The notes under the pieces are model-generated. The model was not told the origin of the DNA. It was given only the letters and a program-made list of their open reading frames with translations, and ran no database searches. From Thraustochytrium sp. TN22 (taxonomy: Eukaryota > Sar > Bigyra > Thraustochytrida > Thraustochytriidae): a DNA stretch of 64,000 bases. The DNA is taken from NCBI GenBank assembly GCA_013306675.1, contig JABLUY010000022.1:124001-188000 (forward strand). Direction: 5' to 3'. Below are positions 3,422 through 32,305 of the stretch, one piece after another (position 1 is the first letter of the stretch; every line of letters begins with the position of its first letter). A program made the position numbers and the translations under genes.

Positions 3422-4104
3422 TCAGTCGTCGAGAGGATTGTAGATGCAACGCACGAGCTCGCCGTGTTGCGTGTTGACCTGGACGACCATCTTGACCTCG
3501 GCGAGGACGTGCTCTGAGGCGTCGCGCAGACTGCAAATGAGGAGGCCGGCGTTGGAGAGCTGGGACGGCTTGATGTGGCTCACGTCGACCTCGTCGACGC
3601 GGAAGCTCATGGTGCTCGTGCCTGTGTAGTTGGCCGGATCAGTGCGGCCCAGCACGATGATGTTGCGCTTCGCGACGCAGTCCACCAGGTACTGCGCGCA
3701 TTGCGTTGGTGCACCACGGGTTTGTGAGTCTGATTATCCAACCGCCGCGCGGAGACCCTTTCCTCAAACCTGGCGGTACCTGACCGACTTACCTTGATCT
3801 CCCAGGTGGCGCCCTTGAGCGGGCGCAGCGCCTTGAACTTGAGCGAAAAGGCGAGCGGCGCCGACACCGGCTGCAGGTCGCTGCCGTCCTCGAAGTCCAC
3901 CTTCTTGAGCGTGATCACCTCCTCCTCTTCCTCTTCCTCCCCATCCTCCTCCTCCTCCTCCTCCTCCTCCATGTTCCTGCTGCCGCCGTCCTCGTCGCGC
4001 TTCGTGGCGGCCGCCGCCAGCCGCTCAACGTCCCTCTCGGGCGCGGTCTTGGACTCGGCAGCGTCCGAGTCCGCCAGCTTCGCCTCGGCGAGCTTGGACT
4101 CCAT
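3422..4104 (-). CDS. Small acidic beta-rich protein, two exons
   Basis: This gene is split by one intron. Exon 1 is 4104-3793 and exon 2 is 3691-3422, giving 193 residues. The intron (3692-3792, 101 bp) starts GTAAGT and ends GCAG, and the phase is 0 after ...TWEIK. The join restores a continuous sheet-like pattern (FSLKFKAL, WEIKYLVD, NIIVLGRT, FRVDEVDV, KMVVQV). The first 65 residues are charged, with two runs of Glu. The remaining 120 or so residues look like a compact beta sandwich. The order of strands is faintly like ASF1-type immunoglobulin folds, but I do not recognise the family with confidence. The start (MESKLAE) follows a (CCG)n tract. Its start codon lies 166 bp from that of the divergent ATP synthase-like gene. 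Confidence 0.75.
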
Positions 4105-16820: not shown

Positions 16821-17497
16821 TTAGAATCGCACCGCCACCGCCGCCGCGTTCGCATACACGCGCTCGCCGTCTGGGGTCGGCTCGGCACTGAGCGACCGCA
16901 GCGGGTTCGGCTGTTCGACCGCAAGCATCGTCACGCCCAGGTCCTCCAGCACGCGCAGGTCCCGCGCGAAGTCCGCCTCGTTGAAGCTCGTGAACATCGC
17001 GAGTCGCCCTGACCCGCGAAGCGCCTTCAAGAGCTCCGTCCAATTACGAGATTCCTTCGCGTGCCCGATACCGCTGTTAAAGAACGCGTACATGTCCGGC
17101 GCCGGCGTCTCCAGAGCCTCCACGCGCCGCAAGTCTGTGCTAAAGCTCACGCGCCGCTGCGGCAGCGTCTCCAGCGCTTCGTGCACCGGCGGCCCGCGCG
17201 TTGACGCGTGCGGTCCCACGAAGCGCAGGTGCCATGAGGCGTCAGTCATGGCCGCCAGGTGCTCCCAATACAGGAGCGGGAGGGTTGACTCCGCACGGGC
17301 ACCCATCACGTCCACGCGCAGCTCGCGCGGCTCGAGTGACTCCGCGTGCTCCAGGAGCCCCGCGGAGCTCGCCAGTCGGCCCAGCGTCAGCGGGTACGAG
17401 AGCAGCTTCGTGAAGACCGCCACGCCGCCAGTGGATGCATGCTTCTCCACCCACTTTTCCAGGCCCACCTCCGTCACCACCGAGTCCCAGCACCGCA

Positions 17498-17568
<71 letters not shown>

Positions 17569-17663
17569 GCCAACGTCCTGTGCAGCCACGGCACGAGGTG
17601 CTCGCCTTCCAGGCTGCGCAACGCGCCTGCCAGCGCCGCAGCGCGCCCGCCCGCCGCACGCAT
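16821..17663 (-). CDS. MSS51 C-terminal-domain-like protein with polyglutamine
   Basis: The protein has 280 residues. After about 30 residues comes an uninterrupted run of 22 glutamines, then an alpha/beta domain. That domain carries the signature of the MSS51/ZMYND17 C-terminal region: LSYPLTLGRL, LRVDVMGARAEST, YWEHLAAM and LRFVGPH. In yeast Mss51 acts in COX1 expression, and its animal relative is mitochondrial. Both also carry a zinc-binding N-terminus, which is absent here. The later block AMFTSFNEADFARDL also fits the family. The start at 17663 leaves only 69 bp to the start codon of the divergent methyltransferase gene. A longer N-terminus would overlap that gene. Confidence 0.72.
17502..17567. 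repeat. (CTG)22 repeat, coding for glutamine on the minus strand
   Basis: Twenty-two pure CTG triplets without interruption read as CAG in the MSS51-C-like gene and encode its glutamine tract. Confidence 0.95.
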
Positions 17664-17732
17664 GGCCCCTCGCGCGCCCGCCGCCGCCCGACCTTCCCGC
17701 GCCCGCGCTGCTCCAGCAAGCGCAAACCTGGA
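17664..17732. promoter_or_regulatory. Minimal 69-bp divergent promoter
   Basis: The start codons of the MSS51-C-like gene (minus) and the methyltransferase gene (plus) are separated by 69 bp of GC-rich DNA. No TATA-like element is seen. Confidence 0.5.
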
Positions 17733-18677
17733 ATGCCCAAGGTCGTGGCGGCGGCGCTCGCGCTGCTGCTCATCGCCGTCGCCGTCGCGATGGCCGAGGC
17801 GAGCGACGTGGAGCGCCACGAGCAGGGACAGCAGACGCAACAGCAGCAACAGGAGCAGCAGCAGGAACAGGAGGAGCCGATGTCCAAGAGCTCGAGCTCA
17901 ACGTCGTCGTCGTCCTCCAGAATGCCCGCCAAGGCGGCGCCAGCGCCCAGTGCCGCGTCCAACGAGGCGCAGCCCGTGCTGCTGCTCGGGTGGCGCGAGT
18001 TTGCGGTCAACTGCGCGCGCGGCGAGCTTGTCGTGGGTGGCAAACCTGTTTACGTGGACGAAGTGGCCAACTCAGGCAAGGGCACGGGCCTGGTGGTCTG
18101 GGACGGCAGCGTCGTGCTGGCCAAGTACGTGGAACACGCCAGCCTGCTGGACGGCGAGAGCCGCGTCCTGGAACTCGGCTGCGGCACCGGCGTGGTGGGC
18201 CTCGCCTGTGCCGCGCTGGGCGCCGGCAACGTCTGGCTCACAGACCTCGAGTACACGCTCGAGAATGTGCGCGCCAACATCGATCGCAACAAGCTCACAC
18301 CGCGCGCCGAGGCCTTCGAGCTTGACTGGACCAGCGAAGACCTCGACGAACGCGTTGCCCACGACTCGCTCACGCACATTGTGGCCGCCGACGTCATCTG
18401 GGTGCCGGAACTCGTCGTGCCCTTTGCCAGCACGCTCGCTCGTCTGGCGCTTGCCAACAGAAGCGCCCTGCGCAAGATCCTCCTGGCGCACCAGACACGG
18501 GCGCTTCGCACGGACGAATTGCTCTGGGCCGAGCTCCGCGCACGCGGCTTTGCAATCGAGGAGGTACCCAAGGCCGCTTTTCACCCTGACTTTCGGTCCC
18601 AGCGCATTCGCATCTACGAGTTGCGCCTTGAATCGCCCGGCCTCGCGTGCCCCGCAACAGACAAGATCACCTCATAA
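17733..18677 (+). CDS. METTL21-type protein lysine methyltransferase with signal-like N-terminus
   Basis: The protein has 314 residues. The C-terminal 230 or so are a seven-beta-strand methyltransferase of the METTL21 (Methyltransf_16) family. They carry VVWDGSVVLAKYV, motif I LELGCGTGVVGLA, a DLEYTLENVRANI post-I region and ADVIW where the family has DxxY. This group trimethylates or monomethylates lysines of chaperones and elongation factors. Residues 1-25 (MPKVVAAALALLLIAVAVAM) form a hydrophobic helix like a signal peptide or anchor. Residues 30-75 are a Gln/Glu/Ser-rich linker. A later in-frame ATG would drop the signal, so localisation depends on start choice. The chosen ATG is the first one downstream of the divergent neighbour. 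Confidence 0.88.
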   Translation: MPKVVAAALALLLIAVAVAMAEASDVERHEQGQQTQQQQQEQQQEQEEPMSKSSSSTSSSSSRMPAKAAPAPSAASNEAQPVLLLGWREFAVNCARGELVVGGKPVYVDEVANSGKGTGLVVWDGSVVLAKYVEHASLLDGESRVLELGCGTGVVGLACAALGAGNVWLTDLEYTLENVRANIDRNKLTPRAEAFELDWTSEDLDERVAHDSLTHIVAADVIWVPELVVPFASTLARLALANRSALRKILLAHQTRALRTDELLWAELRARGFAIEEVPKAAFHPDFRSQRIRIYELRLESPGLACPATDKITS

Positions 18678-18895
18678 ACTATTTAGAATTGGCATGACAT
18701 TATTGATTTCCTGTGTGTCCACGGCGTGACACAGAATGCACGGTCTGCCGCCTGATATGCGCCCGAGCTGTCGGCGTCCAAGCCTGCTTCTCACGCGAAC
18801 TTTCGTTCCTTTTCAGAGTTAGGAGCGCATTCCCATCGCGGGAAGATTTGCGCGTCGTAGGACCACCATAGTATCCTGTCGCTCTTGGACCCCTT

Positions 18896-21800
18896 TCACT
18901 CTTGTGCACTGCGGCGTGGCGCGAAGCGCATCGGCTCGTCATCGTATTCGTCCTCGCTGCTCTCCTCGAGGCCGTCACGGTCCGTGTAGTCGGCGCCAAC
19001 GTGCGGGATGATGGACTGCGACACGCGCCGGTTCAGGACGTCCGTGCCGGCGCGCGGCCTGCTGCGGTACAACTTGGCTGCGAAAATGCCGGCTGTTGCG
19101 ACCACGAAGACGCATGCCACAACTCCAAGAATGGCGGCGACGCCTATGGAAGTGCCGCTGTCGGACCCGTCCGACAGCCCGTCGCCACCGGACCCACCGC
19201 TGCCGTCCGTCAGATTGACGTCCTGTGACTTGTCGCAGGCTTGGTCCGTGAGGATGGCCTCAAAGAGCGCCTCCTGCTCCGTGGTCACCTCGAGTGCCGC
19301 CAGCTGCAAGAGTTTGCGCGCAACGGGCACGAGGCAGTCCGCGCCGACTGTGCACGGGAGCACCAGCTGCCAGGAGCCCGGCTCGCCGGCCTGCGGCAGC
19401 GCTGCCGCTTTCTCGAAGCGCTCCGCGCAGGTATTCGTGGCAACCAGAGCGTCCACCGGGAGCCACAGGATGAGGCCGTCGAGGATGCCGCCTTCTTTGT
19501 AGAGCGCCTCGAGCATCTCCGCCGCCGACAGGCCAACGAGCTGGCACACGCTGCCGATCGCTTGCGGCGCGGTCGACGGGAAGAGCTGCCCGATCAAGGG
19601 CAGCTGCTCCTGATAAGCGCCGACCACCGCAGCGAGGCAGGCACCGTCGTTTGCACACGCGGTCTCCTGGGCCCTTAGTGTTGTTGAGCACGCCGCCTCG
19701 TCGCCCAGATCCACCATGTTCAGGACCAGCTCCATCAGGTCGCTCCAGTGCGTAGTCAGCGTGAGCCGCAGGACCTGCGTGTCGCTCAGCGACGCACCCT
19801 GCGTCGCCTTGTAGGCGCAGACGTCCTGGATCACGCTCGCCGTCGCAGCGGGCAAGAACGGGCCCCACAACGGCAACGTCGTGAGTCCATCCACCAACGT
19901 GCTCAAGCAATCGTCTTCAATGCGGCACAGGGCGTCAACCGTCACGGTCGAGTACCCATCCGCAGTCACCAGGTCCGCCGTCAGGCGCTCCAGCTGCGCA
20001 GCGCACACCGCATCGCCCGTGACGCTGTGCGCCACGACGAACATGAGCTGGCTCAGCGTGGTCTGCGCAAACTGCGTCCAGGTTACGCTGTGGGTTGTAA
20101 AGGAGCAAATGCCGTCCAAGAGCGGCGCCAGGCCCGTTGGCACGTAGTCGCCCACCAGCGGCAGGGTTTCGAGCCCCGTCACGAGCTGCGCCAGGCAGAC
20201 CGGGTCCTCGCACAGCTCCGCCACGCTCAGCTCTGACTTGGCTGCCAGCACGTCCACGCAAGTGTCGTCCACGCCAGCCATGTACGCGGCCAGCTGCAGC
20301 AACTTGGCACCCTCCTCGTCCAAGTACGTCTGGATAGAACGCCGCGTCGTCACGTTTGCCTCGATCATAAGCGCGCAGGACTCCGCGATGAGGACGTCCA
20401 GCTTCGCGGGCACGTACGGCCCGGCGAACGGTAGGTTGGCCAACTTGTTGCCCAGGTCCGCAAGACACGTCTTCTCCGGCACAGTCGCGCACAGCGAGCG
20501 GCCGTCCAGGGCGCCGCCGCGGCTCTTGAAAAGCGCCGCCGCCTCCTCCACCTGCGTCGCGCAGCTCGCGTCCAGGTCCAGGAGCGCCGCTGTGGAGGAC
20601 ATAAGTTGCGGGATGCGGCCCAGCGCCGCCTCGCGCGAGGTCGCGTTCATGATGGCGCAGGTCGTGCCCAGCACCTCGCCCGTACGCGGGTGCATGAACT
20701 CGTTGATGACGGGCAGCGTCGCCAGCTGCGAGCACGCGTATTGCACACACGCCGGCGTCACGTCCGCGCACAGCGCGCCCATGCGGAAGGCATCGCTGTG
20801 CGCGTCAGCGTAGGCTACCAGCATGGTTCCGCAGCCCGGGCTGGACGCAGAGGAGCCCGTCTCCTCGGCGAGCAGGCGTTCGTCGGTGCCTTGCTCACCC
20901 GGCGCGGGCGTATCCCCCAGAACGCGGCCCAGCAGGTCCAACACTTTGGGCAGGAGGCGCACAAAGGCGCTGCCGGCCTCCGGCGTGATTTCCAGGTAGT
21001 CGCTTCCCTCCGTGGCGGACTGCAGGACGCAGGCGTCTTCCAGGATGCTTACCGCCGTCCCCGGCACATATTTGCCCACGAGCGGCAGCTGCTGCAGCGA
21101 GTCAATGGCGTTCTGCGTGCACGTGCTGTCCAGGATACACAGGTTGCGGACCTTGACCTCGCCCGACCGAGGGTCCACCACGTAAGTACGGATCTGCGTC
21201 TGACAATCGTTGTCCAGGCCAAACTGGTCATCCAGGAAGATGCGCCCCAAAAGGTTCAGCAGCGTCGGAATATGCTCCATGAGCGAGGGCAACGAGTCTG
21301 CGTCCTTCATCACGGCGCACAGCGCGCCCACCAGCTGGTCCGTCCCGGTCGGCAGGTACTCGCCGATGAAGGGCAGCTTACTCAGCGTCTTGACGACCTC
21401 TGTTGTGCACTCGGACGTCAGGCCATAGCAAAAGTTCTCAGCGTTGAAGTCGTCCACGAATACGCTCTCCTTGAGCTGCGCCGCGCACGTGTCCGATGGA
21501 TAGCCAAGAACAAACGAGAGAATGTCCATGAGCGACCCGAGGTACGGAAGCACCGCTTCGATCGTGCCGTCCTCGGTCGCCAGGACCGAGCAGCCCGTGA
21601 CCAGCAGCTCGCCCATGCCGTCTGGTGTGATGCTCGGGAGGCTGTCCGCCAGAAGCTGCACGCACTCGGATCCGAGGCTGCTGCAGATCGCCGCCGGCGT
21701 GGCCGTGTCGATGTTCTTGGACGCGCACGTGTGATTGCCCAGGTTGTTGCTGTCAAACACCGACGCGATGATGGACTCCAGGTGCTTCTCGAGGAAGTAC

Positions 21801-24800
21801 GCAATCGTCGTTTCGCCGGACTGCAGCGCGCACAGGTCCACGAGGGCGTCCGAGGCCCAGGATGGAACAAACTTGCCCACAAGAGGCAGCGCAGACACCT
21901 TCGTGAAAAACTCCAGCACGCAGTCGTCGCTGAGCGTACAAATGTCCGTCTCAGCCTGCGGCAGTAGGCATGCGTCGGTCACCCCCGCGACGATACCTGC
22001 CGTGCGCATGAGAACTGGGACGTCGTCGCGCAGAAAGGCCTCCTGATCCACCTCGTCGCTGCTGAAGAGCTTGCAGCCCGAGTCAAGGCTAGCCAGAAAG
22101 GCGGCCACCACGCCATCCGGAATGTGCTCTCCAATGTAATCGACGGCCTCCAGCGCGTCGTTGAGTTCCTGCACGCAGTCTCGCACCTCCTGGGACGACT
22201 CGCACACGAAGCTGACACCGTCGATCTCGCTGGTGCGCTCCTCGCTCACCGGCACAACACTCTCCAGCTCGGTGAGACAGGTGTCGCTCACCTGCGGCGC
22301 AAGTGCGTTCACAAACGGCAGCGTCTTGACGGTGCGCAGGGCCGCGACAAAGTTCGGGATCTGAAAGACGAACTCGGCGAGGTTGAGGCCCTCCATGCCC
22401 GTAGCCACGTCCATCATGAGCCCACAGGCGTTTTCCAAGACGTCAAAGACCAGTGCGCGCACGTATGCCTCGATGGACGTGTACGCGGCGTTGGTGGCCA
22501 GAACGAACACCGTGCGCACCTCGGCGATCGTGTCGAGCTGGGCCGCAATGTACACCAGGCAGGCCTTCTCCTCGGGAGACAACTCACAAACCGTCGCCAC
22601 TGGGCTGGAGCCGCCCACGCCGAGGCCATCGGTGATCTTATCCACCGTGGCGAGGCAGCTGTCGCCAAGGGTCGGCACGTACTCGCCAATGACGGGGAAG
22701 GCGTTGAGCTCGTCCACAATGTGCAGAATGTCACTGATAGAGTACATGAGCGAATCGGCCGAGAGTTGAGCGATGTTGTCGAACAGCGAGCAGGCGTACT
22801 CGCGAATGTCAAAGGCGCTCTCCACCATGCCCGTCAAGGTGTAGTTGGGCGCCAGCGAGGCGGACACGCCGTCCAACAGCGGGATGGCCACGATGGCGTG
22901 CGACACGTCGCGGAAACACTGCGCCTCCTCTGCCGTGTACGCGCATAGAATGCCAGTAAGACCGGACAGGTCCAACGAGCCGACCAGATTCACGAGGCCG
23001 AGCGTCTTGGCTTCGGCAACACCGTTCTCCAGTTTGGTGGCAATGCTGCCCGCAAAGAGCGCCGCGCACTCGTCGCTGAAGACCGGCACGTAGGGCTCGA
23101 GAAAGGACATCTCGCGCAGCTGCTGGATAATCTCCACGAGCTGCGGCAGCGCCGTGACGAAGCCCAGGTAGTCCACGTCTTCGGATTCGGTAAGTAGCAG
23201 GCACGCGTGCGTCTCGAAAAGCGTAAAGACGTTGGCTAGCAGGCCACTCGCGAGCATGTCGCGCACAAAGGGAAGCTGCTCAATTGCAGTGGACGCCTTG
23301 CGCAGGCAGGTAAAGTCGGACGCCGGTGCGGCGCATAGTGTTGCAGGGAGCAGGCCGACCTCACTCTCGCTCAGGCGGGTCGCCAGGGCCTGCAGCGCGG
23401 TGTGACAGGTGGAACCGACCTCAGTCGAGTAGAACCCGAGGCCTCGCGCGACGACGTCGAGCTTCTCAAAAAGAACGAGTAGCTGCGGGAGTCGCTGCAG
23501 GACCGCCTCGACCTCGAGCGTGGTGGAGCCCAGCAGCTCGCACACCGTCGGAACGAGGCCCATGGCAGCCTCGAGCAGATCCTCGACGCCCGTGGTCAGG
23601 TTGGTTTGGTCCATGGAGGCGCCAAGCCCCACAACGCAGGCCGTCTCGGGATCAGTGAGCCCACAGACCGCGGCCAGCGGGTCGCTCTCGCCCTGCAGGC
23701 GTGCAACGAAGCCCTGGACGCTACTCAAGCACGTGTTGGGCACCCATGGCACGTAGGCGCGCAGTGCCGGATAGTCGTGCAGGCCGCGCAGTAGCGAAAA
23801 GGCGGCGGGGAGCGCCTCGATGACACCGCTGAAGTTGATGTCGCCCAGGTCATCCATGGCCAAGCAAAGCGTCTCAGGGAGGGCCTCCATAACGCGGCGC
23901 ACGAGCGATACGTTGGACGCTTTCACTTCGAGGTCGCCGTACAGGAGCTCGCGCAACAGGGGCGTCTCCTCGAGATTGTCCCCAAGTTGCGCCACGCACT
24001 CGCGATCCGCCGCGGCCATGAGGCAGAGCTTCTCGACGCGAAAGTCCTCGAAGAGCACGCTGATGCGCGGAAACGAAACTGCAGAGCAGTTGCCGCCCGG
24101 GATCTGCGGAAGGTAGTCCTCCAGGAAGCTTGGCCCGAGCGTGCGTGCCAGGTCGATGGAGTACAAGATGGTGTCAATATGGCCGAGGATGCTGGTGATG
24201 TCGACCCCGGTGTCGTAGGCGAGAGCGGCGCAGGCGGCGTCGAGCGGGTCGCCCAGAAGCTCGGTGATGAGACCCTCGCGGCCGAGCATGGCGCGCAAAA
24301 TGGATATCTCATCAAGCGTGGCGCCCAGGCTGCGCACGCAAGCACGCTCGTCCGTGCCGAGGCCGCCGCACAAGAGGCCGAGCACGTCGCCCTGGTCGAT
24401 GGCGGACGCCACGCTGCTCAGCACCGGCTGTGTGCACGTGTCGGAAGGGAAGGCCGGCAGCAATGCCGAGCCGGCGGCCTCTGCGGTGTCGGCATAGACC
24501 ATTGCAACCTCCGGGATGCTCAGGATGGCGCGCGTCACGTTGACGTTACCGCTCGCGTCCAGCACGTGGTCTATGATGCTGCAGACACGCGGCAGTACCT
24601 TGTCGATGAAGACTCGCAAAATGTCCTCAACCGGGAGGTCCACGTCGAGGCTGCCGAGGAGCGGGCTCGCGTCGATCTGGGCGCCAAGGTCCAGCAAGCA
24701 GTCACCGAGGACAGCGTCGTCCAGGACCACCCCGCAGATGGCGCTCGGGAGCAGTGCAAGGTTGTCCTCGTTCGCCAGCGTGGCATTGCGCACGCGGGCG

Positions 24801-27800
24801 AGGACCACGTGGTACTCGGAGGCGCAGGAATCGTCGACGACCGGGATGACGCTGGCGAAGACCTTAAACTCGCGCAGCTGCACGAGGACGTCGAGGAGGT
24901 CGTCGAGAGCGAGGAAGACGTTGTCCAGAACGTCGACGCCCTCGATGACCCCGCAGGCGCTCGGCAGCGAGGCAAAGAGCGCGCGTATCAGCACCTTGAG
25001 GCTCTCCGGGTCGTCCACCTGAAGCTGCGACCTGGCCAGATCTGCGATGAGCGAGATGTCCAGCACATTGTCGAGCAGCGCGTACACACAGGTCTGCTCG
25101 TCGCTTGTGATACCGCAGACGCCGGCGACGACGTCCTGGTCCACGAAGCGGGGCACCAGCGAGGTCTTGAAGACGGCCGTACAAGTCTCGTCGACGTCCG
25201 GGACGTAGGCGCTGAGTGCATCGATCTGGTTCAATTTCGCGAGCAGATCCAGCACGTGCGGGATGCTGACGAGGACCGAGTCGAGGTCGAGCTCACCGAG
25301 GTCGGTCGCCACCGCGCAGGCCGTGGGCAGCGTGTCAACGACCTGCGACACGAGGCCATCTGGGATCACGGCAGTCCAGGAGATCTCCCGGAAGCAAGTC
25401 TGCGTCTCGTCTGGCATGGCGCAGAGCACGGCCGGGACGCCGGTGACGCCAACCGGGGAGAGCTCTGCGGCCAGCGTGTGGTAGCGCGCCATGCAAGCGT
25501 CGTCGACCGTGGGCAGGTACGGCTGTACGAAGGAGACAGCGCGCAGCGAATCGAAGAGCGAGACGGCCGTGGGCAAAAAGGTGAGTACCTCGTCGGCTTG
25601 CACGGAAGCCGACTGGTCGTCGAGCAGCGCGCAGATGAGCGGGAGAAGCTTGAGTAGGTCAAGCGCGATGGCGTGCGTCTCTGGCACGATGCCGGCGATC
25701 CAGTCAACCTCCGCCAGGCTGTAGCCGAGATCCGCGAGGCAGGTCTTGGCGTCGTCCGAGACGGCGCACAGAACGCCTGCGACGGCCTCCTCAAGCGAGG
25801 TCCCGCTGTCCTCTTCTTCGGATTGCTCGACCGCCAGCGCGAGACTCGAGGACACTGCCGGAATTTGGTCCTCGCACGTGGTGGGCACATCCGGAATGTA
25901 CGGGTCGATGAGCGTGAAGTTGTTGAGGTGGTTCAGAATGGCGAGCGCGGTTGGAATTTGGTCGGCCAGCAATACGAGCTGAAAGTCCGTGAGGTGGTCC
26001 AAGGCGTCGCACGCCTCGGTGCGTACGACGGTGATGGCGTAGCGCACAAGACCGGAGCCACCAATGAGGTCGCGCAAGATGGTGACCTCATCGATGCTGT
26101 CGCCGAGGAGGCTTATGCATTCGGCCTCATCCGCCGACAGCTCGCAGACCGCGAGCGGTTGCAGGTTGGCGGCGAAGCGCGCCGAGGCGCTCACGTAGTG
26201 CGCGTCACAGGCCTCGTGCGGGATGACTGGAATGTACTGCGCAAGAAACTCGGGCGTGGTCTGCTTGAGGTTGGTGAGCAGGTGCAGGATCTCGGGAATC
26301 TTGGCAACCAGGTTGCTCAGGTCCACATTGCTCAGGTCGCTCCCGATGATGGAGCACGCGTTCGGGATGTCGGTCTCAAGGATGGAGCGCAGGAAGCCGT
26401 CGGGCAGGCCGAGCGCGGTCTTTAGCGCGTCCGCCTGGTCGATGCCGTCGCTGACGGAGAGCAGGCAATTGAGCTCCGCGCCCGCGAGCTGATCGCAGAG
26501 CACAGAGAGCGCCTGCGAGGGCTCACCGACGACGACTTGCAGGTGCGACTGCAAGCCAGCCAAAACGGCCGAGGAGCAGTTTTCCGAAGGGAAGGGTGGT
26601 AGGTACGACTTGATGAAGGTGGGCAGGAGCTCGTTGGGCTGCAGGCCGGCGTACCACTCGAGGATCTCTGGGAGCTTGTCAATGATGACGCTCGTGGAGT
26701 CCACGAGGGACTCGCCTGGCGCAAGGATGGCGCAGGCGCTCGGCAGAATCGTCTGCGGGATGGCCTGCACGACGCCCTGCGCGCCGAGGAGGTCCTGCAG
26801 CAGCGGCACCTGGTCAATCTCGTTGCCGAGCGCAACAAGACACTCGTAGTAGCCAGCCGCAGGCCAGGTGGTGCACATTTGTGTGACGAGCTGGGAGAAG
26901 GTGGCCTCCTCGTCATAGACAAAGGCAACGAGGTTGCTGGCAATGGTCTGAAAGCCAGCGCGGCACGTCTCGTTGCGTGGAATTTGCGGCAGGTACGCCT
27001 GGAGCGGGTAGACGGCGGTCGCCGCGTCCGCATCCTCACCCTCAACGGTCTGCTCGGTGAGGCGGTCGAGCGCTTGGAGCAAGGTGGGCAGAGACGTCAC
27101 GATAGTCTCGACCGAGAAGTCCTGCGCGCTACTGGTGAGCGCGGCACAGGCGTCCGGTACGAGCTCGTCGACGACGAGCTCGAGCGTCGCCTTGCCAATC
27201 TGCTCGCGCACGAAGTCGAACTGGTCCATGACGCGCGAGAGCTGGATGAGGCAGGCGCTGTCAGCGACGCCGGTGCAGATGTGGTTGACCGTGTCATCGT
27301 CCTGGCCCGCGACGATGTCGGCGATCCAGTTCAGGTCGGCCTGGAACTCTGCGGCGCAGACCTGGTCGGTGAGCAGCGCGTGGAGCGCCGGGAGCTCCTC
27401 GCGTAGGGGCACGATGTCGAGTGCGGTGACCGTGGCGAGCACGGTGGGCAGCGCGCGGATGAGGTCGTCGACCTCAAAGCTGACGCCGTCGATCGCCGTA
27501 CAGAGCTGCGGAAAGGCGTCCTCGAAGAGCGCCTTGAAGGTGGCGGCCGGCCCATCGCCGGCAACGGAGGAGACAAAGAGCGACTGCACAATGTCGCTTT
27601 CCTCAAGCGCCGCGCCGATGGCCAGCATGCAGGCCTGCGGGTCGCCGGATGCGAGCACGCATATGTTCTCTGGGAGCGTGCTGAGGCTGGCCACGGCCTC
27701 CTGCAGACTCACGGAGACGGTGTTGATGACGTTCTCGCTGCAAGCCTCGTCGGGCCACTCCGGTGCATAGGGTGCGAGCGCAGGGATGTCGCTGGTGGCA

Positions 27801-29584
27801 GCGTACCACTCGACCAGGCCGGGGAGGCGGGCCAGCACTGTGGCGACGTCAAGGGAGTCCGCCTCGAGCAGGTCGAGCGTGAGGTCGCAGGCGCCCGGCA
27901 GCGTGGAGGTGACGAGTGTCTTGAGCGTGCCCTGGCCGAGGGTATCAGCCGCAACGCCGAGCTGGTCGATGCCGTCGGAGAGCTTGACGAAGCACGCATT
28001 GCCGTTGACGTCAGCGCTGCAGATGAGCTGCATCATCTTGGTGGTGTCATCGAGCGTGGCCTCGATATTCTCCGCCAGCAGGGCAAAATCCTCGCCGCAG
28101 TCCACGAGCGCCTCGTGCACACCAGGCAGCACGGAGGAGAGCGCATCGAGGTCGAGGCTTTTGTAGACGCGGAGCAGCATAGGGAGCTGTTGCAGCACGG
28201 TGGTCGGCGTGACGGTCTGAACGTCCTCGAGCGCGTCGCAGAGCGAGGGTATGACGGTCTCGCCAAGCTCATGCAAGTGGCCGTTGCCCAGCGCAGACGC
28301 CATCCACTCGACGTCGTCGATGTTTTGAGCGATGAGCGTGATGCAGTCAATGACATGCGAGCCGCCGAGAGCCTCGCAGATGGCGGAGGGCACCTGGTCG
28401 GTGGCCACGGCGCTGTCGCCAAAGACGGACGCGTATGCCTGCTGGGCGGCACGGCCCAGCGGGGACGCGCAGCCCTCAGGAATGGACGGCAGGTAGTCGC
28501 TGATGAGATCCCAGGAGGTGACGACCGCGACAACGTTGAGGAGCATTTCGATGCGTGTTTTGGAGGAGCCCGGGACCAGCTCAAAGAGCGACTCCCAGTC
28601 TTCCAAAAAGCTGGTCACGGAGCCGTCGCCAAGGGCACCGATGGCCTTGAGGCCAGCGCAGACCGTGGGAATGTTCTGGTAGATGCTCGAAAGAAGCGAT
28701 TTGATCTGCTTGAGGATGTCGACCACGTCGTCGGTCAAGAAGCCCTGGATCTGATCCACGAGCGGAAAGGACACGACGACGATGAGCTCCACCATGCAGC
28801 CGCGAAATGCGTCCTTGCTGAGACAGATGCCTTTGGGGTAGTAAAAGACGGCGTCGTCGCCGTATGCAGAGTAGACGTCGAGTGCTGTGGCCGTCTTGGC
28901 GCAAGCCTTGGTGGAGATGATCCCAGCGATGCCGTCGAGGTCCTTGATGAGCCCAATGAAGCTCGGGATCTCGCTCAGCCAGTCGTCCAAGGTCCACGTC
29001 CCGTCCGCGATGGTCTGGATCTTTTCCAGCAGATTGCAGGTCTCCTCCATGCTGAGGCCGTCCAGCGCAAGCGAGATGGACCAGCACACCCACTCTGTCG
29101 TGCACTCGCCGGTGGTCTCGTCGCAGAGCACAGGAAACTCGAAGAGCTCGCGCCGCGAGGAGGTCGCCGAGGCCGGTTTCGCATCGGGCGCATTCATGGC
29201 CGGGTCGTAGCCCTCGGCGCGCAAGATGCGTGCCACATCGGGCGAGACAAAGTACGGAAGCACTCTGTACTCCTCCTCTGCGCTAACGTCAGGATCTGCG
29301 CGCTCCGGGTAGCGCGCGCGGAAGCTGTCTCGCAAGCGGCGCGCGAAGGCGGCCTTGGCGCGCTCCACGCGCACCTCGGTCTCCAGGTCCAGCGCCGGCT
29401 GGAACTTGGCTACGCCCTCCGTCAGGTGCCGCGCCCCCACGGCAAACTCGGCCAGCACCGCGCCAAAGTTCACGTAGCCGTCCGACGCGGACCACCTCCT
29501 CGTGGAAGGCGCCGCCAGCGCCTCCGTCGCCACCGCTGCAAGCGCCAGCACCAGCGCCGCCGCCAGCACCAGCGCCCGCGCCAT
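18896..29584 (-). CDS. Giant single-pass membrane protein with about 28 four-Cys repeats
   Basis: The protein has 3,562 residues in one uninterrupted exon. Residues 1-25 are a signal peptide (MARALVLAAALVLALAAVATEALA). The lumenal or extracellular part is made of about 28 divergent units of roughly 120 residues. Each has a four-cysteine skeleton: (I/L)C, about 10 residues later CLxxL, about 35 later ACxxL, about 47 later a Cys after a PxxP-like turn, then 26 or so to the next unit. Between them lie amphipathic helices with the words LPxxL, YxPxxP and ID. The last eight or so units have a shorter LPLVGxYVP variant. A Gly/Ser/Asp-rich stem precedes a membrane helix (about 3480-3503) and a 59-residue acidic cytoplasmic tail (EESSEDEYDDE). 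I do not recognise the family. Secreted helical repeat arrays suggest an adhesion, wall or ectoplasmic-net component, but that is inference. Upstream frame to 29677 adds a non-signal leader, so the ATG at 29584 was chosen. Confidence 0.9.
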   Translation of the reverse strand: MARALVLAAALVLALAAVATEALAAPSTRRWSASDGYVNFGAVLAEFAVGARHLTEGVAKFQPALDLETEVRVERAKAAFARRLRDSFRARYPERADPDVSAEEEYRVLPYFVSPDVARILRAEGYDPAMNAPDAKPASATSSRRELFEFPVLCDETTGECTTEWVCWSISLALDGLSMEETCNLLEKIQTIADGTWTLDDWLSEIPSFIGLIKDLDGIAGIISTKACAKTATALDVYSAYGDDAVFYYPKGICLSKDAFRGCMVELIVVVSFPLVDQIQGFLTDDVVDILKQIKSLLSSIYQNIPTVCAGLKAIGALGDGSVTSFLEDWESLFELVPGSSKTRIEMLLNVVAVVTSWDLISDYLPSIPEGCASPLGRAAQQAYASVFGDSAVATDQVPSAICEALGGSHVIDCITLIAQNIDDVEWMASALGNGHLHELGETVIPSLCDALEDVQTVTPTTVLQQLPMLLRVYKSLDLDALSSVLPGVHEALVDCGEDFALLAENIEATLDDTTKMMQLICSADVNGNACFVKLSDGIDQLGVAADTLGQGTLKTLVTSTLPGACDLTLDLLEADSLDVATVLARLPGLVEWYAATSDIPALAPYAPEWPDEACSENVINTVSVSLQEAVASLSTLPENICVLASGDPQACMLAIGAALEESDIVQSLFVSSVAGDGPAATFKALFEDAFPQLCTAIDGVSFEVDDLIRALPTVLATVTALDIVPLREELPALHALLTDQVCAAEFQADLNWIADIVAGQDDDTVNHICTGVADSACLIQLSRVMDQFDFVREQIGKATLELVVDELVPDACAALTSSAQDFSVETIVTSLPTLLQALDRLTEQTVEGEDADAATAVYPLQAYLPQIPRNETCRAGFQTIASNLVAFVYDEEATFSQLVTQMCTTWPAAGYYECLVALGNEIDQVPLLQDLLGAQGVVQAIPQTILPSACAILAPGESLVDSTSVIIDKLPEILEWYAGLQPNELLPTFIKSYLPPFPSENCSSAVLAGLQSHLQVVVGEPSQALSVLCDQLAGAELNCLLSVSDGIDQADALKTALGLPDGFLRSILETDIPNACSIIGSDLSNVDLSNLVAKIPEILHLLTNLKQTTPEFLAQYIPVIPHEACDAHYVSASARFAANLQPLAVCELSADEAECISLLGDSIDEVTILRDLIGGSGLVRYAITVVRTEACDALDHLTDFQLVLLADQIPTALAILNHLNNFTLIDPYIPDVPTTCEDQIPAVSSSLALAVEQSEEEDSGTSLEEAVAGVLCAVSDDAKTCLADLGYSLAEVDWIAGIVPETHAIALDLLKLLPLICALLDDQSASVQADEVLTFLPTAVSLFDSLRAVSFVQPYLPTVDDACMARYHTLAAELSPVGVTGVPAVLCAMPDETQTCFREISWTAVIPDGLVSQVVDTLPTACAVATDLGELDLDSVLVSIPHVLDLLAKLNQIDALSAYVPDVDETCTAVFKTSLVPRFVDQDVVAGVCGITSDEQTCVYALLDNVLDISLIADLARSQLQVDDPESLKVLIRALFASLPSACGVIEGVDVLDNVFLALDDLLDVLVQLREFKVFASVIPVVDDSCASEYHVVLARVRNATLANEDNLALLPSAICGVVLDDAVLGDCLLDLGAQIDASPLLGSLDVDLPVEDILRVFIDKVLPRVCSIIDHVLDASGNVNVTRAILSIPEVAMVYADTAEAAGSALLPAFPSDTCTQPVLSSVASAIDQGDVLGLLCGGLGTDERACVRSLGATLDEISILRAMLGREGLITELLGDPLDAACAALAYDTGVDITSILGHIDTILYSIDLARTLGPSFLEDYLPQIPGGNCSAVSFPRISVLFEDFRVEKLCLMAAADRECVAQLGDNLEETPLLRELLYGDLEVKASNVSLVRRVMEALPETLCLAMDDLGDINFSGVIEALPAAFSLLRGLHDYPALRAYVPWVPNTCLSSVQGFVARLQGESDPLAAVCGLTDPETACVVGLGASMDQTNLTTGVEDLLEAAMGLVPTVCELLGSTTLEVEAVLQRLPQLLVLFEKLDVVARGLGFYSTEVGSTCHTALQALATRLSESEVGLLPATLCAAPASDFTCLRKASTAIEQLPFVRDMLASGLLANVFTLFETHACLLLTESEDVDYLGFVTALPQLVEIIQQLREMSFLEPYVPVFSDECAALFAGSIATKLENGVAEAKTLGLVNLVGSLDLSGLTGILCAYTAEEAQCFRDVSHAIVAIPLLDGVSASLAPNYTLTGMVESAFDIREYACSLFDNIAQLSADSLMYSISDILHIVDELNAFPVIGEYVPTLGDSCLATVDKITDGLGVGGSSPVATVCELSPEEKACLVYIAAQLDTIAEVRTVFVLATNAAYTSIEAYVRALVFDVLENACGLMMDVATGMEGLNLAEFVFQIPNFVAALRTVKTLPFVNALAPQVSDTCLTELESVVPVSEERTSEIDGVSFVCESSQEVRDCVQELNDALEAVDYIGEHIPDGVVAAFLASLDSGCKLFSSDEVDQEAFLRDDVPVLMRTAGIVAGVTDACLLPQAETDICTLSDDCVLEFFTKVSALPLVGKFVPSWASDALVDLCALQSGETTIAYFLEKHLESIIASVFDSNNLGNHTCASKNIDTATPAAICSSLGSECVQLLADSLPSITPDGMGELLVTGCSVLATEDGTIEAVLPYLGSLMDILSFVLGYPSDTCAAQLKESVFVDDFNAENFCYGLTSECTTEVVKTLSKLPFIGEYLPTGTDQLVGALCAVMKDADSLPSLMEHIPTLLNLLGRIFLDDQFGLDNDCQTQIRTYVVDPRSGEVKVRNLCILDSTCTQNAIDSLQQLPLVGKYVPGTAVSILEDACVLQSATEGSDYLEITPEAGSAFVRLLPKVLDLLGRVLGDTPAPGEQGTDERLLAEETGSSASSPGCGTMLVAYADAHSDAFRMGALCADVTPACVQYACSQLATLPVINEFMHPRTGEVLGTTCAIMNATSREAALGRIPQLMSSTAALLDLDASCATQVEEAAALFKSRGGALDGRSLCATVPEKTCLADLGNKLANLPFAGPYVPAKLDVLIAESCALMIEANVTTRRSIQTYLDEEGAKLLQLAAYMAGVDDTCVDVLAAKSELSVAELCEDPVCLAQLVTGLETLPLVGDYVPTGLAPLLDGICSFTTHSVTWTQFAQTTLSQLMFVVAHSVTGDAVCAAQLERLTADLVTADGYSTVTVDALCRIEDDCLSTLVDGLTTLPLWGPFLPAATASVIQDVCAYKATQGASLSDTQVLRLTLTTHWSDLMELVLNMVDLGDEAACSTTLRAQETACANDGACLAAVVGAYQEQLPLIGQLFPSTAPQAIGSVCQLVGLSAAEMLEALYKEGGILDGLILWLPVDALVATNTCAERFEKAAALPQAGEPGSWQLVLPCTVGADCLVPVARKLLQLAALEVTTEQEALFEAILTDQACDKSQDVNLTDGSGGSGGDGLSDGSDSGTSIGVAAILGVVACVFVVATAGIFAAKLYRSRPRAGTDVLNRRVSQSIIPHVGADYTDRDGLEESSEDEYDDEPMRFAPRRSAQE

Positions 29585-30562
29585 CGTGCCAGCCCAAAGC
29601 AGCTCAGTCAGGACGTTTGCCTCTGATTTTCTGGGCTCGCACGCGGCGCCGGCGGCGACAAAGCTGATGCCCCGCACTGGGACTCGTCCTCGACCTTGAA
29701 CGACAACTCCATCCCATCAACGGCATCGAGCGCAACCCAGAATCAGGGGCGAATCCGGGGGCAAATCAGGGACTCACAGTTTGGCGCCGTGACCGACCAG
29801 AACAACTTGAAGAGGGAGCTCCGTCGGGGAGCAGCGTACGTGCCTTGGCATGCTGGCCATGCGGCGATTCTATCGTGCGCTGCGGTTGGCGCGCTGATGT
29901 GCGTGCGAAGGCCGTCGCACTCCGTTGGAGTCTTTCTTTGCAAGATGCCATTGCCATTATTGCAAAGAAGGCGAGCGAGCAAGAGAGAATATGCGCGCTC
30001 GCGCGCGCTCGCGCGCGCTCGCGCGCGACAGGGGCCGGCAGTGAAGCCGCATGTCGCTCGGCGGCGCCGCCCCGCGTCGCAAATTGCGAGGAAAAGGAAA
30101 GGACGCTGTCAGGCTGGCAGCGTCGCTGCATGACACAAGGCATGGACTTCAAGTTTGCATCCATGAGTTGGTGCCGCGAGACCCCGGTGACTCTGACTCC
30201 GCCTGCCCTGCGCGGTCCCGTGCGCATCGCGCGCAGCAGGAGACAGCAAGCAAGCAAGCCAGCGCGCGCGCACCACTTTGTGCGCTAGCACGAGCAAGTT
30301 GGATGCGCTCGCTTCTGATACCTGGGCGTCGGCGGCGTCAGGTTGGGACGCGACGCCGCCATGGCTGGGACGCGACGCCGCCATGGCTGGGACGGGACGC
30401 GCGAGCAGAGCAGCACGGGGCCAGGGCCAGGGACGAGCACGACGACGGCAGCAGCAAACCAGCAACAGCGAGCAAGAGCAAAGGCAAGGGAAGAAAAGAG
30501 CGGTCGAGGAATCGATCTCAAGCGCCTGCCTGAGGAATCTCAACTTCAACAAGCGAGGAAGA
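29585..30562. promoter_or_regulatory. Divergent promoter region with 22-bp tandem repeat
   Basis: This 978-bp gap lies between the giant gene and the P450 gene. It holds a (GCGC)-rich CGCTCG run at about 29997-30028 and the 22-bp repeat at 30341-30400. No gene is supported, although one frame is open across the end of the region into the P450. Confidence 0.5.
30341..30400. repeat. 22-bp tandem repeat
   Basis: Two complete copies (30341-30362 and 30363-30384) of a unit starting GGCTGGGACGCGACGCC, plus a partial third, lie in the 5' flank of the P450 gene. Confidence 0.85.
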
Positions 30563-32305
30563 ATGATTGCGATGCGCACGACCAAGCCTTCGGCAGTGAC
30601 GGCGCTGTGCGCCGGTGCGGCGGCCGTGGCGCTGTGGCGGCTCGTGGTGCGTCCTCTACTGCAGCTGCGGCGGCGCGCGATCATGTGCAACCGGCTGCCG
30701 GGCCTGGCGGAGGCGGCGAACGAGGGGTGGGTGCTGGGCACGCTGGTGGGTGAGGACGTGATCCCGCGCGGGCAGGCGATGACGCCGGATAACTTTCGCA
30801 AGGGCATTCTGGGCGCCATGCGGCGCGCTCTGCGGCGCAATGACGGTCTTCGGCGCAAGGGCGTGGTGGTGGCGCACTACCTGAGCGAGTGGCTGAGCCG
30901 GCTCGTGCCGTGGCACAATATGCATGTGGTGGTGGTGCACAAGATGGAGTACATTCGCGAGATTCTGGCGGCCAAGAACCAGCACAAGTTCGTCAAGGGG
31001 CGGAGCTATGAGGTGTTTGGCGCGCTGGTGGGCCAAGGCGCCCTGAGCTCGTCGGGCGCCAAGTGGCGCATGCAGCGCACTGCACTGGACCACGCCTTCA
31101 AGGATCGTGCCATGGCGCGCGTGGTGCCGCAGGCGAACGAGACGACGGACAAGCTGATCGCGAAGCTGGCGGCGGTCGGGCCGCACAAGGCCGTGGACAT
31201 GACGGAGGAGTTCATGAAGCTGGCCATGGACAGCCTGGGCCACTTCGCCATGTCGCACGCCTTTGGCAGCGTGGAGGCGAGTCGCCCCGAGGACGCGCCG
31301 CTGTACGAGGCGTTCGAGGTGATTTTGGGCACGCTCAACACGCGCGTGTTCTTGCCCATGGCGCACGAGACGCGGTGGGTGCCGCTGCCGGTGAACCGCG
31401 AGTTCAACGCGGCCATGACGACGGTGCGCGACACGTGCACGCGCATCATCGAATCGCGGCGGCGCGAGCTGGCGGAGCGCAGCGAGGCGCTGCGCGAGCC
31501 GCGCGACGTGGTGGACGTTCTGCTGACTGGCGCGGTGATGGACACGGAGCTGGGCGAAGAGCGGCCGTTCACGACGGAGGAGATCATGGACAACATGCTC
31601 ACGCTGACCTTTGCGGGCCACGACACGACGGCCAGCCTGCTCACGTTTGCGCTGTACCTGCTTGCCACCTGTGAAGCGGGCGTGATGAAGCGGCTGCGCG
31701 CCGAGCTTGACGCGGAACTTGGCAGCGACGGCGACCTCACGCTGCAGGATATGGAGCGCCTGCCGTACCTGGACGCCATTCTCACCGAGGCGCTCCGGCT
31801 GTACCCGTCGGCGCTCTTCACGCGGCGCGCGCTGGAAGACATCCGCCTGGGCGACGACATGGTCGTGCCGGCTGGCACGGAGATCTTCGTGTGGCCGCAG
31901 CTCACGCAGCGCGACCCGGACAACTTTGAGGACCCGGACGCCTTTTTGCCCGAGCGCTGGCTCGACCGCCTGCAGCGCGACGGCCGCCCGCTCAAGGTCG
32001 AGTTGGTCGTCCTAGGCCGCGAGCTGGCTTATCTGCCCTTCTCGCTCGGCCCCCGCAACTGCCTGGGCCGCTCGTTCGCGCTCACCTCCATCAAGTCGGT
32101 GCTCGTGCGCCTCGTGCGCGCCTTCGACTTCGTCCACGTCCCTGACGAGGACTTTTCCCCGGACCCTGCGCTCAACCTTACCTTCAACGCCACGCCCTGC
32201 CACATGCGCGCCCTCCCGCGCCGCTCGGCCGCCGCCACCGCCGGCTGCGTGGCCGAAGCAGCCGCCCGCCTCGCCCTGGGCCAAGGAGCCTCTGTCGCGG
32301 CGTAA
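30563..32305 (+). CDS. Cytochrome P450 monooxygenase (CYP4/CYP46-like clan)
   Basis: The protein has 580 residues. Residues about 10-28 form an N-terminal membrane anchor (AVTALCAGAAAVALWRLVV), so it is likely an ER enzyme facing the cytosol. The I-helix oxygen-binding motif is AGHDTT (351-356), the K-helix ExxR is EALR (409-412), PERW follows, and the heme-ligand loop is FSLGPRNCLGRSF with Cys500. The general sequence is closest in feel to the CYP4/CYP46/CYP3 group, whose members hydroxylate fatty acids or sterols. Substrate cannot be read from sequence. The C-terminus after the fold is Ala-rich. The start chosen is the ATG just before the anchor; a nearby Met five codons later is equivalent. 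Confidence 0.95.
   Translation: MIAMRTTKPSAVTALCAGAAAVALWRLVVRPLLQLRRRAIMCNRLPGLAEAANEGWVLGTLVGEDVIPRGQAMTPDNFRKGILGAMRRALRRNDGLRRKGVVVAHYLSEWLSRLVPWHNMHVVVVHKMEYIREILAAKNQHKFVKGRSYEVFGALVGQGALSSSGAKWRMQRTALDHAFKDRAMARVVPQANETTDKLIAKLAAVGPHKAVDMTEEFMKLAMDSLGHFAMSHAFGSVEASRPEDAPLYEAFEVILGTLNTRVFLPMAHETRWVPLPVNREFNAAMTTVRDTCTRIIESRRRELAERSEALREPRDVVDVLLTGAVMDTELGEERPFTTEEIMDNMLTLTFAGHDTTASLLTFALYLLATCEAGVMKRLRAELDAELGSDGDLTLQDMERLPYLDAILTEALRLYPSALFTRRALEDIRLGDDMVVPAGTEIFVWPQLTQRDPDNFEDPDAFLPERWLDRLQRDGRPLKVELVVLGRELAYLPFSLGPRNCLGRSFALTSIKSVLVRLVRAFDFVHVPDEDFSPDPALNLTFNATPCHMRALPRRSAAATAGCVAEAAARLALGQGASVAA

Follow-up and report, generated by a model that had tools for sequence, protein, structure and literature searches.

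A giant, apparently single-exon gene of Thraustochytrium sp. TN22 encodes a protein of 29 four-cysteine modules predicted to be helical

The stretch of Thraustochytrium sp. TN22 DNA analysed here (64,000 nucleotides, hereafter the window) carries on its minus strand a single frame (18896-29584) that stays open through 3,562 codons to its stop, and the putative ectodomain of the encoded protein is made of 29 modules (D01 to D29) with four cysteines apiece. At the sequence level, the protein combines a continuous frame, the module array, hydrophobic ends and an acidic tail. The reading we favour, with confidence slightly short of even, is that of a chain of helical modules, locked by disulfides and anchored in the membrane, which most likely stands on the cell surface as an extended stalk and serves in attachment or scaffolding.

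The gene starts with an ATG at 29584 and ends with a stop codon at 18896-18898, and its product of 3,562 residues has a mass of about 377 kDa, contains 122 cysteines and is rich in Leu, Ala and Val. GC3 stays between 0.81 and 0.88 across 12 consecutive 300-codon blocks (the last block being shorter), an evenness along the frame which is as expected of one coding exon. A preliminary description of this DNA had proposed one exon of 3,562 residues at 18896-29584, and these coordinates are exact. The features of the gene, all on the minus strand, are the following.

18896..29584, minus strand: single-exon gene (by its open frame and GC3 of 0.81-0.88)
29513..29584, minus strand: signal-peptide-like N-terminus, residues 1-24 (hydropathy and reading)
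29129..29512, minus strand: Cys-free N-terminal region, residues 25-152 (sequence)
29009..29128, minus strand: residues 153-192, probably a degenerate module, D00 (four leftover Cys before D01: C154, C161, C167, C183)
22046..29008, minus strand: D01-D19, 19 long four-Cys modules, residues 193-2513 (register and profile; D01 fails leave-one-out)
24926..25288, minus strand: D11, modelled with AlphaFold2 (pLDDT 87.8, pTM 0.70)
19208..22045, minus strand: D20-D29, 10 short four-Cys modules of the LPLVGxYVP type, residues 2514-3459 (register and profile; D21, D28 and D29 fail leave-one-out)
19148..19207, minus strand: Gly/Ser/Asp-rich stalk, residues 3460-3479 (sequence)
19076..19147, minus strand: membrane helix, residues about 3480-3503 (top 19-residue hydropathy of the protein)
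18899..19075, minus strand: tail of 59 residues, 3504-3562 (sequence)
18935..18967, minus strand: acidic cluster EESSEDEYDDE in the tail, residues 3540-3550 (sequence)

The definition of the module rests on the position of its cysteines. Long modules (D01-D19) follow the register a-x25-b-x8-c-x35-d and short ones (D20-D29) a-x19-b-x5-c-x29-d (median spacings in both cases), and we place the module boundary about 9 residues past Cys d, which is the third Cys in the preliminary scheme. That scheme started each unit at (I/L)C...CLxxL; such a cut also yields 29 units, but the last one lacks its fourth Cys and the N-terminus keeps one Cys too many, so we abandoned it. In the corrected register, the array opens with an a-type Cys and closes with a d-type Cys, and this completeness of the Cys sets at both ends is the main reason for preferring it. 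Complete end sets also point to disulfides that close within each module, as does the short list of cysteines outside the 116 module Cys, namely the four of D00, C2951 and C3491, the last of which sits within the membrane segment. The D00 cysteines have a spacing unlike that of the other modules and lie outside the profile, and their assignment to a degenerate module is a probable one. The preliminary description was thus right about a four-Cys repeat and low on its count, with about 28 copies announced for 29 found plus the probable D00. Its unit of about 120 residues holds for the long modules (median of 121 aa for D03-D19) and not for the short ones (median of 91 aa for D20-D28), and the shorter LPLVGxYVP variant that it had noticed in the last units corresponds to D20-D29.

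Three details of the register work should be mentioned. In the preliminary register, 17 long units align with four invariant Cys and 9 short units with three, as aligned. An early definition by Cys pairs set aside three close pairs by judgment (first Cys at 2539, 2946 and 3299); two of them turn out to be a-b pairs once the register is corrected, and the other contains the extra C2951. Finally, an alignment of overlapping four-unit blocks was left out, being out of register. The extra cysteine itself belongs to D24 (C2951, window 20732-20734), which is preceded by the longest d-to-a stretch of the array (65 residues); given these two features, D24 may hold the one free-thiol site of the protein.

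Alignment and shuffling support the array. The four Cys columns are identical in 29 of the 29 modules, and the next best column is a Pro (20 of 29). Modules are otherwise strongly diverged, as previously described, with a pairwise identity of 26% on average and a maximum of 0.37. The four-Cys spacing occurs 28 times, whereas 2,000 shuffles averaged 2.9 occurrences and never exceeded 10 (with spacing limits drawn from the data itself). When each of the 29 modules was scored with a leave-one-out profile, 25 beat all 2,900 shuffled modules, the exceptions being D01, D21, D28 and D29; in the preliminary register, where units 1, 19 and 29 were omitted, the 26 units scored (17 long and 9 short) all did better than 2,600 shuffled ones. 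A profile built from the 29 modules recovers all 29 at a domain E <= 0.01, a result circular by construction. When the long and short profiles are aligned with one another, their four Cys coincide (E 3.7e-6, probability 87). The underlying alignments contained 17 units for the long profile, 9 for the short one and 27 of the 29 for the module set.

Two kinds of higher-order structure were considered. Duplication of a six-module block was rejected: offset 6 gives the top mean similarity among long modules, yet a value as high turned up at one or other of the offsets 1 to 10 in 1,661 of 5,000 permutations (at offset 6 alone, 206 of 5,000 permutations of D03-D19 reached the observed similarity). 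Within modules, a two-part profile comparison gave a probability of 32.8 over 16 columns, against at most 1.5 in 30 column-shuffled controls, which is suggestive of an internal two-fold repeat in each module, 16 columns being too short to claim one.

AlphaFold2 predicts an all-helical module, in agreement with the helical units proposed beforehand. The D11 model, based on an alignment of 27 of the 29 modules, contains helices only (pLDDT 87.8, pTM 0.70), and a two-unit block in the preliminary register, modelled from 9 rows, reached a pLDDT of 74.8 and a pTM of 0.61. As both alignment depth (27 versus 9 rows) and length differ, the comparison lends weak support to the corrected register. In the two-unit model, confidence drops at the loop behind the Cys-d helix, which allows flexible beads as well as a rod.

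The preliminary description knew of no named family with this skeleton, and our searches returned no convincing Pfam or PDB sequence match and fold matches at noise level. Against Pfam, the exact 3,562-residue frame matched no family at E<=1e-5 and the whole protein none at E<=10 (HMMER filters discard most matches above 0.1). Searched singly at E<=1, 27 of the 29 modules gave just four rows, VMAP-M8 (best, E 0.012), Pch2_N, DUF2209 and DUF5464, each in one module of the 27, which we take as chance. Neither the whole protein nor the 27-module profile matched a PDB sequence at E<=10; the whole-protein query of this search and of the Pfam search at E<=10 includes 31 residues read upstream of the ATG. 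The long-unit profile gave nine PDB rows (the best a leucine-rich repeat protein at E 0.069, the rest transportin-1) and the short-unit profile three RAP1 rows (best E 0.87), all of them dismissed as chance. Structure comparison of the D11 and two-unit models with the PDB produced noise-level matches only, and viral structure models gave no match above noise to the one-module model. In the open-licence PMC literature, no protein of this kind was found among the matches listed.

Both ends of the protein look like those of a single-pass surface protein. The signal-like start, the membrane segment and the acidic tail, called by hydropathy and reading only, had all three been noted in the preliminary description, and with the module array they make up the parts shared by giant single-pass modular surface proteins, a kind defined by architecture and not by homology. 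Proteins of this kind are known, and it is the module that is without convincing match in the libraries searched. Residues 24-3475 (window 19157-29515) are strongly acidic, with 487 D+E versus 158 K+R and a pI of 4.05. A dibasic RR, noticed by eye, lies just N-terminal of the first Cys (SSRRELFEFPVLC, residues 142-154, window 29123-29161) and is a possible processing site.

The gene appears to be alone in its genome. We searched the 37.9-Mb assembly with both protein halves and a third query taken from within one of them, scoring just the best candidates, and retrieved this gene only, bar one chance-level row. The latter (C331, E 0.114, with one internal stop) was rejected as a second copy, as it is absent from the best 30 rows listed for each of three module profiles. 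A loose LPLVGxYVP pattern occurs at 7 places in the genome, 5 of them in the giant gene, against 2 for a reversed control. Having turned up no further copy, these searches do not suggest a variable-antigen family. Exact-peptide scans, which reach close relatives only and here covered non-eukaryotic collections, gave no match in IMG/VR for 21146-24376 and 24377-28384, nor in GTDB genomes for 19361-21436.

The giant gene lies head to head with a P450 frame (30278-32305, plus strand; PF00067, E 5.2e-76), the 5' part of which contains a 22-bp tandem repeat of 2.6 copies (30344-30400), and it is convergent with a 582-aa frame (16981-18729, plus strand) that has no Pfam match at E<=0.001. Elsewhere in the genome, contig C124:27000-45400 (L021, L034) carries a 3,044-aa frame for a PfaA-type omega-3 PUFA synthase, the 2,919-aa scanned part of which matches PfaA TIGR02813 with 2,411 bits. 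Its domains are KS, AT, ten tandem carrier domains (PF00550), KR and, weakly, DH; nine of the ten carrier rows share a score of 41.0 bits, which makes the carrier copies nearly alike. Divergent from it is a frame of 2,055 aa that contains two ketosynthase stretches plus an insert of the FabD type; we take this frame to be of the PfaB type. Three-polypeptide Pfa systems are described for thraustochytrids, and E. huxleyi is likewise named with a PUFA synthase, in PMC13311796. E. huxleyi is a haptophyte. Taken with the small genome and its long uninterrupted frames, the synthase makes a thraustochytrid the likely source of this DNA.

Several known helical modules resemble ours in part. Saposin modules, which occur in tandem in a secreted precursor (prosaposin), are likewise small, helical and disulfide-locked, but they contain six Cys in nested pairs, for four here in 29 of 29 modules; SapB is not among the Pfam families returned for the protein at E<=10 (none) or the four rows from 27 of the 29 modules at E<=1. 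Elicitins, which oomycetes (stramenopiles) secrete as helical domains about 100 aa long and rich in Cys, also differ by having six Cys. A further case is the plant pectin methylesterase/invertase inhibitor (PMEI), a helical protein with four Cys forming a four-helix bundle with an N-terminal hairpin, whose C-x8-C pair resembles the b-c pair of our modules; PMEI entry 1x8z is row 25 of a fold list in which all rows are at noise level. Neither elicitin nor PMEI was matched in Pfam by the whole protein or by 27 of the 29 modules.

In overall design, a parallel comes from bacteria. According to PMC7587433, Embp of Staphylococcus epidermidis is a 1-MDa adhesin with helical-bundle repeats that forms rigid rods, and the Embp/Ebh repeats combine low residue similarity with a conserved secondary structure, each one consisting of two triple-helix bundles and measuring about 7 nm in length. 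The likeness lies in a very large surface protein with dozens of helical repeats (F and FG repeats in Embp/Ebh) of low similarity; the differences are that Embp/Ebh is bacterial and that its repeat is a pair of triple-helix bundles. We found no sequence relation in the PDB at E<=10, in a copy that may lack the Embp entries, and, as to a triple-helix bundle, both of our models gave noise-level fold rows only. To our knowledge, Embp has no disulfide locking, unlike the modules proposed here. Embp may thus serve as a working parallel for the giant protein, not as a relative.

If these parts act together as we suggest, the single gene would encode a type I membrane protein directed into the secretory pathway by its signal peptide, the single helix near the C-terminus being the membrane anchor and the 59-residue tail being cytoplasmic. 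About 3,300 extracellular residues would form 29 (or 30) helical modules in series, with two disulfides each, and modules stacked end to end would make a long, stiff and acidic rod, whose length would come to roughly 100 nm at 3-4 nm per module (our own estimate). Such a rod would be placed on the plasma membrane or its extensions, and would either act as a fibre for attachment or provide the scaffold on which wall or scale material is laid down. Topology, within-module disulfides, rod shape, location and role are all inferred.

The same parts could also be those of a giant cargo or sorting receptor, with several ligands captured by its modules along the secretory or endocytic path and the acidic tail cluster recycling the receptor, an idea to which we give a modest chance. 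The cation-independent mannose-6-phosphate receptor, with its many domains, acts in this way, and the single-pass anchor, the short tail and its acidic cluster, with two Ser in an SxxD/E setting, would all be in keeping with it. The cluster may resemble sorting signals and furin-type clusters and would fit a sorting receptor too, and modules that differ from each other (mean identity 0.26) would suit different ligand sites. On the other hand, no tyrosine or dileucine sorting motif is visible by eye, and known sorting receptors of such kind use other folds. We rate as somewhat less probable a structural protein of the wall or matrix, which would be released from its anchor by cleavage and become part of the surface coat instead of being held in the membrane. 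Such cleavage would be permitted by the flexible Gly/Ser/Asp stalk that precedes the membrane helix, and by the dibasic sites seen by eye near the N-terminus, but if Cys pair within the modules and D00, the ectodomain retains just C2951, which leaves little scope for Cys cross-linking.

Saposins and elicitins, as small disulfide-locked helical modules holding a hydrophobic ligand, suggest yet another use, in which each module would hold such a ligand and an oil-rich cell would have a protein that gathers or stores lipid at its surface. The predicted all-helical modules of about 90-120 aa, the abundance of Leu, Ala and Val and the PUFA synthase of the organism agree with it; four Cys per module instead of six, and no match to a saposin or elicitin profile, do not, and we think such a lipid-binding chain slightly more doubtful even than the cleaved matrix protein. 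That there is no single protein at all, the frame being due to chance in GC-rich DNA or to several genes fused by reading, is very improbable: the GC-rich window does list 155 frames of at least 150 aa on both strands, but the even GC3, the unbroken module array and a four-Cys spacing far beyond shuffles all argue against it.

Returning to the surface stalk, a role in the ectoplasmic net is not safe to assume even for a thraustochytrid, since Thraustochytrium sp. ATCC 26185 is said to be without a net in the review PMC11642839. Few proteins of the thraustochytrid net are known. In Aurantiochytrium limacinum, PMC12221091 lists 18 ectoplasmic-net candidates, none tested by its own account, some with a signal peptide and/or membrane helix and without recognisable homologues outside the group. 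The giant protein resembles these candidates by description only, as a thraustochytrid protein without convincing match in the libraries searched, and differs from them in that section 9 of that paper names no four-Cys module array. A bolder proposal, which we consider rather unlikely, is that labyrinthulomycetes alone possess this module, as a new helical fold locked by disulfides, and that the protein is a fibre with a structural role at their distinctive cell surface, in the ectoplasmic net or the scale wall.

The molecular make-up of the labyrinthulomycete cell surface, ectoplasmic net and scale wall included, is still largely unknown. A 377-kDa protein, with one copy found in its genome and built of a well-predicted module without clear match, offers a concrete and testable surface candidate, and the definition of the module (register, spacings and profile) can be used for searching other labyrinthulomycete proteomes.
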